From Arthrobacter gallicola (GTDB lineage Bacteria; Actinomycetota; Actinomycetes; Actinomycetales; Micrococcaceae): a DNA stretch of 64,000 nucleotides. The notes beneath the pieces were generated by a model. It had not been told where the DNA came from, ran no database searches, and was given only the letters and a program-made list of their open reading frames with translations. Below, piece by piece: positions 58,051-61,986 of this stretch; position 1 is the first letter of the stretch, and each line of letters begins with the position of its first letter. The stretch covers positions 664,185 to 728,184 of the forward strand of contig NZ_JACSQD010000001.1 of NCBI RefSeq assembly GCF_014836775.1, written 5' to 3'. The position numbers were made by a program, and so were the translations under genes.

Positions 58051-59487
58051 ATGGAATATTTCAATGCCGAGGGATATGAGCTGGCGCGGCAGGTCCTGCA
58101 GCGCGGCACGGCGGCCGTGTTCCTGCTCGCGTTTGTGGCTGCGGCAGCCCAGTTCCCGGCACTGCTGGGTGAGCGCGGCCTGCTGCCGGCACCCCGGTAC
58201 CTGGAACGGACCGCAGGCCGGCGGATTCCCACACTTTTCCGCCTGCACTACTCGGACCGTTTTCTCCGTGCGGTGGCGTGGTCCGGCGCCGCGGCCGCTG
58301 CTTTGCTGGTGGCCGGGCTGCCGCAGCAGGGCCCGCCCTGGGTGCCTCTGCTGATGTTTGGCCTGATCTGGTTCCTGTACCTGTCGATAGTGAATGTGGG
58401 CCAGGTGTTCTACGGGTTCGGCTGGGAGTCCCTGCTGCTTGAAGCCGGCTTCCTGGCCGCCTTCCTGGGCTCTAACGAGGTTGCGCCTCCGGTCACGGTG
58501 CTGTTCCTGTTCCGCTGGCTGGTGTTCCGGCTGGAGTTCGGTGCCGGATTGATCAAGCTGCGCGGCGACCGGGTGTGGCGGGACCTGACCGCGCTGTACT
58601 ACCACCATGAGACCCAGCCGATGCCCAATCCGGCCAGCTGGTTCTTTCATCATCTCCCCAAGCCGCTGCACAAGGTTGAGGTGCTGGGCAACCACTTCGC
58701 CCAGCTGGTGGTTCCGGTATTTCTTTTCTTCCCGCAGCCGGTGGCTTCCATCGCAGCCGCCCTGGTAATCCTCACGCAGCTGTGGCTGGTGCTTTCGGGC
58801 AACTTTGCCTGGCTCAACGTCCTGACCATTCTGGTGGCCTTCAGCGCCGTGAACGATGCCGCCGTGCAGGCAGTTCTGCCCTGGGCGTCCTTCAGTTCAC
58901 CGGAACCGGGCAGCACACCGGTGTGGTTTGCGGTGGTGGTGCTGATGATGACGGCGGCCATGCTCTACTGGGCGTGGGAGCCGCTGCGGAACCTGTTCAG
59001 CCGGGACCAGCTGATGAATGCGTCCTTCAACCGCTGGCATCTCTCCAACGCCTATGGTGCCTTTGGCAGTATCACCCGGCGGCGGAACGAAATAGTCATT
59101 GAGGGGACCCTGGACGAGCCGGGGCCGGACGCGCGCTGGCTGGAGTATGGCTTCCATGGCAAGCCGGGTGACCCGGGACGGCTGCCGCGCCAGTTCGCTC
59201 CCTACCACCTGCGGCTGGACTGGCTGATGTGGTTCCTGGCCCTGGGTGCCTCCGGCGGGAACTGGTTTCCGGTTCTGCTCGGAAAACTGCTCGCTGCGGA
59301 TCCGCAGACGCTGAAGCTTCTGCGCGTGGACCCGTTTGACGGTGCGCGGCCGCGCTGGATCCGCGCCCGTGTCTTCCGGTACCGGTTCTCCACACCGGAA
59401 GAACTGCGCCGCTGGCACGTCTGGTGGGTCCGTGAACCTTCCGGCGTCCTGGTGGATCCCCTCCAGCTCAGGCCCCGGGACGTTTGA
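58051..59487 (+). CDS. Lipase maturation factor family membrane protein
   Basis: A 478-residue protein with about nine hydrophobic segments and the LMF pattern: FRLHYSDRFLRAVAW, GQVFYGFGWESLLLEAGFLA, FRLEFGAGLIKLRGD, LTALYYHHETQPMPNPASW, and a C-terminal soluble domain with RQFAPYHLRLDWLMWFLALG. Animal LMF1 helps lipases fold in the ER; the bacterial role is unknown. It is divergent from the PIG-L gene across 75 bp. Confidence 0.88.
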   Translation: MEYFNAEGYELARQVLQRGTAAVFLLAFVAAAAQFPALLGERGLLPAPRYLERTAGRRIPTLFRLHYSDRFLRAVAWSGAAAAALLVAGLPQQGPPWVPLLMFGLIWFLYLSIVNVGQVFYGFGWESLLLEAGFLAAFLGSNEVAPPVTVLFLFRWLVFRLEFGAGLIKLRGDRVWRDLTALYYHHETQPMPNPASWFFHHLPKPLHKVEVLGNHFAQLVVPVFLFFPQPVASIAAALVILTQLWLVLSGNFAWLNVLTILVAFSAVNDAAVQAVLPWASFSSPEPGSTPVWFAVVVLMMTAAMLYWAWEPLRNLFSRDQLMNASFNRWHLSNAYGAFGSITRRRNEIVIEGTLDEPGPDARWLEYGFHGKPGDPGRLPRQFAPYHLRLDWLMWFLALGASGGNWFPVLLGKLLAADPQTLKLLRVDPFDGARPRWIRARVFRYRFSTPEELRRWHVWWVREPSGVLVDPLQLRPRDV

Positions 59488-59538: not shown

Positions 59539-60324
59539 CTAGGATCCGTCCGGTTTGGTTACCACCGTGTGCGTGGCGTGGTCGTAAAGGAACGTCACCG
59601 GACCCCCGGCATGATGGAAACCGTAGTTCGCGCCGTCGAAGTGGGCGCCGTACCCGTAGTTCTCATCCCAGGAACCGTTCAGGGCAGCCTTGTACTCGTA
59701 GTCACCGGAGGGAAGATCGACCGTGAGTTTCCACAGTTCATCGCTGCGGTCAAAGCCCAGCTGGACCGCAGGGTCCGCGGGCGCCCAGTCCTCGCCGCCA
59801 AGCAGGGCACCGAAATTACCGGTCACAGCAACCGCATTCGGCTGGGGAAAGGACGGCCCGTCATAGTGGTCCTCAGGATGGGATCCGTGCGGCTGCCCGG
59901 CAGGCACAGCGGAGGCGTCACGCAGCGCCTCCTCCAGCACTTCCTCGCTGTGGGTTTCCGCCTGCGTCACCACGGTCTGGGACTCCTTGGTCCCCCTCAG
60001 GGCAGCCTGCAGCTGTTCCACCTCCGGGAAATCGGCCAGGGCGGCGCGTCCCGTTCCGGTGATGCTCCAGCCGGCGCGGCCTTCCTTCAGGATCCAGCCG
60101 GCCTTCACAAGCTTGGTGCTGGCGGTGACCAGGGCGCGTTCACCGCGGGCAACTCCGCTGGCCAAGAATTCGGCTTCGGTTCCTTCCAGGGGCACCCGTT
60201 CCAAAACCTGCTTCAGCACATCGGCCCGGCCGGTCCTTGCGGGATTGGATGGATCCTGGCTGGCCAGGATTTCCAGGATGGCTTTCAGCCGGACGGCAGT
60301 GTTTTCAACGCTCTTCTTAGGCAA
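59539..60324 (-). CDS. Winged-helix (Mrr_N-like) protein fused to a pullulanase X25-type glycan-binding domain
   Basis: A 261-residue cytoplasmic protein of two parts. Residues 1-115 form a winged-helix region (RADVLKQVLERVPL, then ALVTASTKLVKAGWILKEG, RAGWSITGTGRAALADF) like the Mrr N-terminal domain. Residues about 160-255 read like an X25/starch-binding beta sandwich: VTGNFGALLGGEDWAPADP, LPSGDYEYKAALNGSWDENY, GGPVTFLYDHATHTV. No signal peptide or catalytic domain is present. It might be a carbohydrate-sensing regulator (hypothesis). Normal X25 domains occur in secreted amylases. Confidence 0.75.
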   Translation of the reverse strand: MPKKSVENTAVRLKAILEILASQDPSNPARTGRADVLKQVLERVPLEGTEAEFLASGVARGERALVTASTKLVKAGWILKEGRAGWSITGTGRAALADFPEVEQLQAALRGTKESQTVVTQAETHSEEVLEEALRDASAVPAGQPHGSHPEDHYDGPSFPQPNAVAVTGNFGALLGGEDWAPADPAVQLGFDRSDELWKLTVDLPSGDYEYKAALNGSWDENYGYGAHFDGANYGFHHAGGPVTFLYDHATHTVVTKPDGS

Positions 60325-60417
60325 GGCGGGGTCCTCCAGATCGGTTGCGGCTGGTTTGTTCTGTCTGCTGGGCGGGCTCTGCGTCCAGGACCGCTTCGAT
60401 GCGGTTCGCGCCTGATG

Positions 60418-61197
60418 CTAATGGGCACAGGCTGTGGTGGGAAGTCCGGGGGCCGGCCCGGCAGAGAATGCGGGCAGGCGGGACGCATCCCCTTGACGGA
60501 GCCGGGCATACCTGCGATAGCCGGCCAGGAGGGCGGCTTCGGCGTCATCCATCGTGAGCCCCGGGACCAGGTCCTCGGCGGCGCCTGCGGTAGCGGGGTC
60601 CCAGTCAAGGCCCAGGGCCGCGTAGACGGATGTCAGCACGCGGCGCAGCGGAGCGGCATTGCGGACCACCACCACCGAGGAAAACAGCCAGGCTCCGGAC
60701 ACCACACGCTGCGCGGTTCCCACCAGCTTGATGCGGTTATCTCCCGTTCCGCCATGCACGGTGTACTCCCCCGGGCAATACTCTCCCGGGATTTCCCCCA
60801 CGCCGGCCGGCACCCCGGCGTCCTGCAGTGCTGTGGCCAGCAGCTCGGCAAAGCAGGAAAAGCGGGCCAGGGAACGGGCGACGGCGTTGGGCTCGGGTTC
60901 AATGTGATCCACGATCAGGCAGCCCTCGTGGTAGGCAGCCGCCCGTCCGCCAGCTTTGCGGATCAGCGGTTCGAAGCCCTGGTCGCGGCAGGCAGCGGCG
61001 GCGGCGGCGAATCCCGGCAGCCGGGCATCGCGCTGGCCGAAGGCAACCGTGGGCCGGGGACGGTAGATCCGCAGCGCAGGGCCGAGCTCCCCATTCCGGG
61101 CCGAGGCCAGCATTGCCAGGGCGGCCTCGAGGTCCGCAGCCGCTCCGATCGATTGCTCCTGGCGGTAAACGTCCAGGACTTTGGCGCGTTCTTCCAC
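60418..61197 (-). CDS. Lipoate-protein ligase A family protein (LplA/LipM-like)
   Basis: A 259-residue BPL/LplA/LipB-fold protein with a GTG start three bases after the thioesterase stop. It has the RIYRPRPTVAFGQRD segment, the RKAGGRAAAYHEGCL loop typical of lipoate ligases, and a KLVGTAQRVVSGAWLFS segment with the catalytic-type lysine. It would transfer lipoyl or octanoyl groups, but a biotin-ligase-like or other acyltransferase function remains possible. Confidence 0.82.
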   Translation of the reverse strand: MEERAKVLDVYRQEQSIGAAADLEAALAMLASARNGELGPALRIYRPRPTVAFGQRDARLPGFAAAAAACRDQGFEPLIRKAGGRAAAYHEGCLIVDHIEPEPNAVARSLARFSCFAELLATALQDAGVPAGVGEIPGEYCPGEYTVHGGTGDNRIKLVGTAQRVVSGAWLFSSVVVVRNAAPLRRVLTSVYAALGLDWDPATAGAAEDLVPGLTMDDAEAALLAGYRRYARLRQGDASRLPAFSAGPAPGLPTTACAH

Positions 61198-61200
61198 CGG

Positions 61201-61986
61201 TTAGCCCCTGCCCAGGGGGCGGACCGTGAGGATTTGTTCGCTGCGTCCGAAAGGACCGGTCTGGTCGTGCAGAACCGAGGAGGTCAGACCGATGCCGTCC
61301 GTGCCGAAGGTGACACGGGTATCCAGTCCCAGCCAGCGGCCCTCGGGTTTGCGGTACAGATGCATCTGCAGGTCCACGTTGGGGAACATCCAGCTGTCCC
61401 CGCCCGGCGGGACCCGTGCTGCTATGCCGTTGGCTGCGTCCACCAGGCCCAGCAGGCTGACGAGGTCCGGGGTGGGTTCACCGTCCACCATCTCAAAGGG
61501 TGAGCGCACCCAGACCTGGCCGCGGCCGGGGCGCAGTCCGGGCACAGCACGGAATTCCAGGGAATTGATGAAGTTACCCGGCCAGGCGGTCATCCCGTCG
61601 AAGCTGGCGGTTTCCTCCGGTCCGGGCATCGTTTCATCCTCCACCGCGGCTACCTCAGCGGAGTTCCCTAGGGCGAGCCGCCAGGCCGTCGCCCGGATGG
61701 CGGTGCGCCCGCCGGATATGAACTCGGCTTCCAGCAGCTCGATCGTGCGGCCGGGCCGGATGACCTTGGTCCGTACATCGAACGTGCCCTGCGGAATGAT
61801 GCCCAGAATTTCGAAGCTGACCCGTGCCAGCCGCATGTCCGGCCGGGGATCGGTCTTTTCCAGGCAATGAACCAGAAGGCCGGCGGCCGGAGCCATGTGC
61901 TGTTCGTGCGCGTTCCAGGCCCCCTGCGTGTGCGGCGTTGACTCGAACGTTCCCTCACCCAGCGGGCGGTAATACGATTCCGGCAC
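61201..61986 (-). CDS. TesB-like thioesterase family protein (double hotdog)
   Basis: A 261-residue protein. The GTG at 61986 (VPESYYRPLGEGTFESTPHT) is preferred because AGGAGG lies four bases upstream; an in-frame TTG further up lacks this. It has two hotdog halves: WNAHEQHMAPAAGLLVH and DPRPDMRLARVSFEILGIIP in the first, VDLQMHLYRKPEGRWLGLD and VTFGTDGIGLTSSVLHDQTG in the second. It probably hydrolyses acyl-CoA. It is coupled to the lipoate-ligase-like gene. Confidence 0.85.
   Translation of the reverse strand: MPESYYRPLGEGTFESTPHTQGAWNAHEQHMAPAAGLLVHCLEKTDPRPDMRLARVSFEILGIIPQGTFDVRTKVIRPGRTIELLEAEFISGGRTAIRATAWRLALGNSAEVAAVEDETMPGPEETASFDGMTAWPGNFINSLEFRAVPGLRPGRGQVWVRSPFEMVDGEPTPDLVSLLGLVDAANGIAARVPPGGDSWMFPNVDLQMHLYRKPEGRWLGLDTRVTFGTDGIGLTSSVLHDQTGPFGRSEQILTVRPLGRG

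Follow-up and report, generated by a model that had tools for sequence, protein, structure and literature searches.

Within a 64,000-nucleotide stretch of Arthrobacter gallicola DNA (NZ_JACSQD010000001.1, positions 664,185 to 728,184 of the forward strand; hereafter the window), a single gene encodes the fusion of an N-terminal Mrr_N-related winged helix with a C-terminal X25 β-sandwich. The best explanation of this protein, to which we give slightly less than an even chance, is that it is a cytoplasmic α-glucan-responsive one-component DNA-binding protein with a dimer as its working model, for which we infer the cytoplasmic place, the binding of glucan and DNA, the dimerisation, the direction of regulation and the targets. 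The N-terminal winged helix would contact DNA, and the C-terminal X25 domain would read internal α-1,4-glucan in the form of glycogen or long maltodextrins. Glucan chains would draw the two X25 lobes of the dimer together, this closure would alter the seating of both winged helices on the DNA, and target-gene expression would thereby be set by the carbon store. The dimer is proposed because the X25 modules of Sca5 are described as non-binding when single and as clamping one glucan when paired (PMC9112005). The fuller account, of a bacterial transcription factor that reads a polymer store, with glycogen clamping the X25 lobes of the dimer, and that arose by a one-time capture of an amylase X25 behind a restriction-type winged helix followed by disulphide loss in the cytoplasm, seems doubtful when taken as a whole.

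The gene begins with a TTG codon that is retained in 14 of 16 aligned sequences from the Arthrobacter genus, with a purine-rich ribosome site ahead of it (Table 1). An open reading frame on the opposite strand (59569-61503, plus strand, 644 aa) was discarded, because a codon-usage gene caller picked the minus-strand gene unforced and because the minus-strand protein is conserved. Across seven ortholog pairs, in some of which dS was near or above 1 and thus saturated, the winged helix had a dN/dS of 0.03-0.15, the X25 domain one of 0.06-0.16 and the linker one of 0.13-0.47. Given the open reading frame, the conservation of its orthologs and these ratios, 59539-60324 therefore encodes a real gene under constraint, and the ratios together with the variable linker are the pattern expected of two functional domains joined by a tether. 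Among the relatives, one ortholog (genome G057, loci L028/L061) has a complete open frame yet no ATG, GTG or TTG near its start, and one genome (G018, loci L009/L068) contains the fusion in two copies.

Table 1. Features of the fusion gene and its product, in window coordinates.
Feature	Position	Strand	Basis
Complete gene (261 aa; start codon TTG; stop codon 59539-59541)	59539..60324	minus	Conserved across 51 aligned orthologs
Ribosome-binding site GGAGG, 8 nt before TTG	60333..60337	minus	Sequence reading
Possible -10 element TAGCAT, weak candidate	60415..60420	minus	TA and downstream T invariant in 16-sequence upstream alignment
Mrr_N-type winged helix (predicted), ~residues 2-110	59995..60321	minus	Sub-threshold Pfam, ortholog matches, AlphaFold2
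Linker with low-confidence helix, ~residues 111-159	59848..59994	minus	Low pLDDT
X25 β-sandwich, ~residues 160-258	59551..59847	minus	Pfam 66.8 bits; 2wan Z 14.2; 7rpy Z 11.6
W180, equivalent of Sca5 W620	59785..59787	minus	56/56 fused X25s; 7rpy alignment
K212, equivalent of Sca5 K654	59689..59691	minus	56/56 fused X25s; 7rpy alignment
W219, equivalent of Sca5 W661	59668..59670	minus	56/56 fused X25s; 7rpy alignment

A sequence-only reading of this DNA had described an Mrr_N-type winged helix joined to an X25-type domain, and had put forward profile searches of both halves as a check. The X25 half was confirmed: X25_BaPul_like (PF22058) lies above its cut-off in Pfam (66.8 bits vs 27, residues 165-254) and was matched in 35 of 35 orthologs at E<=0.01. 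The other half stood in part, since Mrr_N (PF14338) matched 27 of the same 35 orthologs (best 6.8e-8) and the structural model is of a winged helix, but the window protein itself scored below the cut-off (25.1 bits vs 29.5, residues 15-97); its winged helix is therefore called Mrr_N-related and not a Pfam member. AMPK1_CBM was matched in 12 of the 35 orthologs. Beyond X25, every Pfam family fell under its cut-off in the 261-aa protein, with AMPK1_CBM and CBM_20 sub-threshold, and a scan of the protein against NCBIfam gave no match. The reading had also held that catalytic domain and membrane segment are lacking, and both points were borne out: Pfam found no catalytic domain, Mrr_cat nuclease or NTPase in the protein, and a hydropathy scan, which is distinct from signal-peptide prediction, found no membrane-like stretch, with a best 19-residue value of 0.58 in the window protein and 0 of 51 orthologs above 1.6. 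At the level of architecture, a one-component regulator layout is present, with a DNA-binding-type and a ligand-binding-type domain in a single chain.

An AlphaFold2 model built on a 35-sequence alignment (mean pLDDT 85.6, pTM 0.48) orders the protein as a winged helix (~2-110), a low-confidence helix (114-138), a disordered segment and a β-sandwich (160-258). When the whole model was compared with the PDB by Foldseek, two matches were returned at E <0.001, both of them X25 domains (2wan and 7rpy). Structural alignment of the sandwich gave Z 14.2 with 2wan (rmsd 2.2 over 94), Z 11.6 with Sca5 X25-2 in 7rpy (rmsd 3.4 over 103) and Z 10.5 with SusF (rmsd 2.4 over 94). The X25 fold (Z 8.2-14.2) and the W, K and W residues are thus shared with Sca5/Sas20 (7rpy), SusE/SusF and the pullulanase of Bacillus acidopullulyticus (2wan), whose X25 domains occur within amylolytic or cell-surface proteins, whereas the fusion has a single X25 behind a winged helix. 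In the account of the Sca5 and Sas20 domains, K654 and W661 of Sca5 X25-2b contact maltotriose, W481 of Sas20 (the W661 equivalent) is essential, and mutation of Sas20 W440 (the W620 equivalent) lowers affinity ~100-fold (PMC9112005). All three equivalents are invariant among the fused X25s (Table 1); N233 is retained in 54 of 56, and may differ in position from Sca5 N684, given the ambiguous alignment there.

The 56 distinct fused X25s were compared with 41 X25s of the fetched loci that come from open frames of >500 aa. Six scanned proteins, all GH13, contain ten of these 41, and the remainder are assumed to be similar. One relative's GH13 protein (L083:5473-8610, minus strand) has three tandem C-terminal X25 modules. 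Cysteines at both the 177- and 184-equivalents, which flank W180, were found in 38 of the 41 long-frame X25s vs 0 of the 56 fused ones, so that the pair present in actinobacterial amylase-type X25s is absent from the fusion. The three long-frame X25s without the complete pair comprise a truncated fragment and two domains from Bacillales, and two fused X25s keep the first cysteine (177-equivalent) only. Loss of the pair matches what would be expected of a domain relocated into the reducing cytoplasm. In a tree of 96 X25s, built from 99 columns and with many forks open, the 56 fused domains are split off by a single branch (SH-aLRT 90); when the tree is rooted on the Bacillales copies, a root that is uncertain, they nest within the amylase-type domains. 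The simplest account would be a single capture of an amylase-type X25 behind the winged helix, with subsequent loss of the disulphide.

Modelled alone, the winged helix reached a pTM of 0.82. It aligns to many winged helices with Z <=8.8 (DNA-bound NsrR, rmsd 2.3 over 79), and these fold matches mix DNA binders with non-binders such as cullin WHB (Z 8.5). On the strength of these structural matches the predicted winged-helix fold is regarded as secure; DNA binding is a further step that we infer. Foldseek returned nothing at E<=0.001 for the isolated domain (best E 0.065), and the regulator family is therefore left unnamed. The median net charge is +3 for the winged helix and -8 for the X25 domain, and in some orthologs the N-domain is neutral or mildly acidic (L022, for example, at -1).

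The sequence relatives of the winged helix are restriction proteins. In a class-level survey of 296 genomes, the domain was matched in 14, three of them from the window's family; nine of the eleven matches outside that family were scanned (Pfam, E<=1e-4), and comprised six AAA_5 McrB-like proteins, one Mrr nuclease and two unmatched proteins. Inside the family, the four N-terminal relatives that were scanned divide evenly between AAA_5 proteins and Mrr nucleases. At phylum level, four proteins that have only the N-terminal part were matched by the whole-fusion profile. The strongest match spans positions 6-141 with E 1.4e-18, by which the ortholog family is homologous to Mrr N-termini; the three of the four that were scanned are Mrr nucleases. 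The fusion thus shares an N-terminal Mrr_N winged helix with the Mrr type IV restriction endonucleases and lacks their Mrr_cat nuclease domain; the McrB-like AAA_5 proteins with an Mrr_N-type N-terminus likewise have a related winged helix, and the fusion lacks their NTPase domain. Mrr_N itself has been described as presumed DNA-binding (PMC3874153). Such McrB-like AAA_5 proteins were seen at L086:4097-6253 and L087:4386-6536 (both minus strand) and at L142, L144, L145, L146, L147 and L151, with the winged helix at or near the N-terminus, or ~200 residues in for L146 and L147; these may represent a type IV restriction branch whose reader is of Mrr_N type.

It is at the winged helix that the main rival explanation arises, in which the protein is a glycogen adaptor that does not bind DNA: its X25 domain docks it on glycogen, and a partner is recruited by the winged helix, here a module for protein-protein contact. 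The intact X25 site residues suit such an adaptor, winged helices that do not bind DNA score like DNA binders (the cullin WHB match), and the X25 domain bears a weak sequence resemblance to the plant glucan phosphatase DSP4 (E 5.9e-4) and to AMPK beta (E 0.12). The AMPK beta glycogen-binding domain and SEX4/DSP4 are β-sandwiches that bind glucan inside cells; they belong to a eukaryotic kinase subunit and phosphatase without a winged helix. Against an adaptor, the nearest sequence relatives of the winged helix, the Mrr nucleases and McrB-like proteins, act on DNA, and across the 51 fusion loci no conserved partner gene adjoins the fusion gene. We consider this explanation unlikely, and the three that follow less likely still.

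An X25 with a new ligand or a purely structural role, in a protein that regulates something unrelated to glucan, would fit the reported lack of binding by lone Sca5 X25 modules (PMC9112005), and near-site positions do deviate from the amylase type in many orthologs (39 of the 56 fused X25s have H234 and 48 have E235), the window protein having neither residue. The invariance of the binding-site tryptophans and lysine in all 56 speaks against such a change of ligand, for which the chances appear low. The linker, in turn, could suggest a protein that ties glycogen particles to the chromosome or is nucleoid-associated, and that regulates little in a sequence-specific way. Across the 51 orthologs it ranges from 0 to 141 residues and from -23 to +11 in net charge, and the basic, Ala/Lys/Pro-rich linkers of some orthologs, at up to +11, would suit that role; other orthologs have a linker of strong negative charge (to -23) or no linker at all, so that a basic tail is no family feature, and a tether seems improbable.

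In the window's family (taken to be Micrococcaceae; 149 genomes), 63 genomes match the protein and 47, in 10 of 32 genera, have both halves together; the remaining 16 have one half alone, either an X25 within long frames or an N-terminus resembling that of Mrr. Among the matches listed for 297 genomes of the order, full-length ones (at least 14) are confined to this family, and so are the two found in a phylum survey of 346 genomes. When GTDB species contigs were scanned, 12 loci emerged, namely 11 full-length Arthrobacter copies and one Bacillales X25. Three plasmid and two phage records match the X25 part alone, and none in either collection extends over 80% of the protein; an origin in a mobile element was rejected because no full-length copy occurs there. 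X25-like matches at MT835825.1:4653-4943 and MT836818.1:1178-1459 lie in "Bacteriophage sp." records from human faeces, which are possibly bacterial contigs. We regard the fusion as a family of long standing that is under constraint.

A link with glycogen is hinted at by co-occurrence. The branching-enzyme model TIGR01515 scores above its cut-off in 102 of the 149 family genomes and in 47 of the 47 with the fusion, leaving 55 GlgB-positive genomes without it; LMF1, used as a control gene, passes its cut-off in 67 genomes of the 149, and 12 of these 67 lack GlgB above cut-off, although one of the 12 (G133) has a contig-edge fragment. The co-occurrence has a hypergeometric value of 1.9e-10 and a Fisher value against LMF1 of 0.0013, neither of which is a probability since both ignore kinship. 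The presence of the fusion is nested within GlgB genomes, and this is suggestive only, because kinship confounds it. The A. gallicola genome has GlgB and gave no other match to the fusion protein, so that no other X25 is detectable there in that way.

The neighbouring genes do not add to this link. At the 12 loci from the Arthrobacter genus, the gene order reads SRAP peptidase, aldo/keto reductase (opposite strand), acyl-CoA thioesterase, lipoate-ligase-like protein and fusion gene (12/12), followed in 8 of the 12 by a lipase maturation factor on the opposite strand. In the window, this is an LMF1 homolog at 58051-59487 (plus strand), convergent to the fusion gene. Across 51 fusion loci (leaving out L082, an X25 fragment only), neighbours are stable inside a genus and differ between genera, and ten conserved neighbours picked as representatives include no glycogen gene. 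In single-contig genomes, glgB lies ~2 Mb (G131) and ~0.25 Mb (G104) from the fusion gene. A glycogen-operon context was therefore rejected, and the survey near glycogen genes that the sequence-only reading had advised came out negative: the fusion gene is not beside them, and context support is missing. That reading's central proposal, a glycan-sensing DNA-binding protein, thus keeps the backing of the domains, the site residues, the cysteine loss and the GlgB nesting but loses that of glycogen-gene context.

A defence context was rejected as well. PADLOC gave no match for the window protein or for one ortholog, and a GmrSD_C-type (HNH) gene that comes next on the same strand is limited to six loci of one genus (L049, L051, L055, L056, L062 and L070); its product has, by eye, a hydrophobic N-terminal stretch, which suggests export. 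That the fusion is a restriction-derived sensor of foreign DNA, such as glucosylated phage DNA whose sugar the X25 would read, is very improbable, for although its winged-helix relatives are restriction proteins and a GmrSD_C-type gene follows it in those six loci, it has no nuclease domain and no PADLOC match, is retained across 10 genera with non-defence neighbours in the Arthrobacter genus, and has in the GmrSD_C-type product a neighbour that is apparently exported.

No operator common to several genera was found in the 51 upstream regions, nor a broadly shared dyad, the best 5-base dyad occurring in 5 of 51, all of a single genus. The motif TCACASTCRGTCAC is present upstream in two genera with differing neighbours; exact copies stand at the fusion gene in 10 of 13 genomes and three more occur elsewhere, and in these genera the exact motif is nearly confined to the fusion promoter. 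It was chosen from the same sequences, and is for that reason treated as a lead. A GTCACACTCGGTCAC-like motif lies ~110-135 bp ahead of residue 8 in two genera with unlike neighbours (loci L016, L018, L022, L023, L029 and L070, and L066, L069, L071, L072, L073 and L075). When a 12-site matrix was applied to the other 39 upstream regions, none scored above the shuffled 99% level of 7.5 (best 4.0), and 4 of 39 exceeded the shuffled 95% level of 1.3.

Taken together, the architecture, predicted folds, binding-site residues, cysteine loss, single fused clade, conservation and GlgB nesting support an α-glucan-responsive DNA-binding protein. Against it stand the non-binding of lone Sca5 X25s, the cullin WHB-like folds, the sub-threshold Mrr_N score and the non-basic N-domains of some orthologs, together with the absence of glycogen-gene linkage and of a cross-genus operator, and the GlgB genomes without the fusion. 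The closest working analogues are the plant BZR1-BAM proteins BAM7 and BAM8, in which a DNA-binding domain is joined to a domain derived from a starch enzyme and which are described as proposed metabolite sensors (PMC6394054). They are not members of this family, being plant, nuclear proteins with a β-amylase-like barrel and unrelated domains. The sequence-only reading had named the design as one not known to it as characterised, and this agrees with an open-access literature search for X25 with a winged helix, for fusions of glycogen-binding and DNA-binding domains and for PF22058, which gave no paper describing it.

The layout of a one-component regulator is known, and a sensor of polymer-binding type is unusual. 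Control of glycogen in bacteria is known to act via small metabolites and enzyme allostery, and in eukaryotes AMPK-beta is thought to sense the glycogen reserve directly. If the proposed explanation is true, the family would show clearly how a domain was captured from one compartment into another, with the lost cysteine pair as its visible trace, and a protein that joins polymer-binding and DNA-binding modules would enable the cell to sense its reserve directly; the fusion may thus allow genes to be switched in response to the sugar that the cell has stored.
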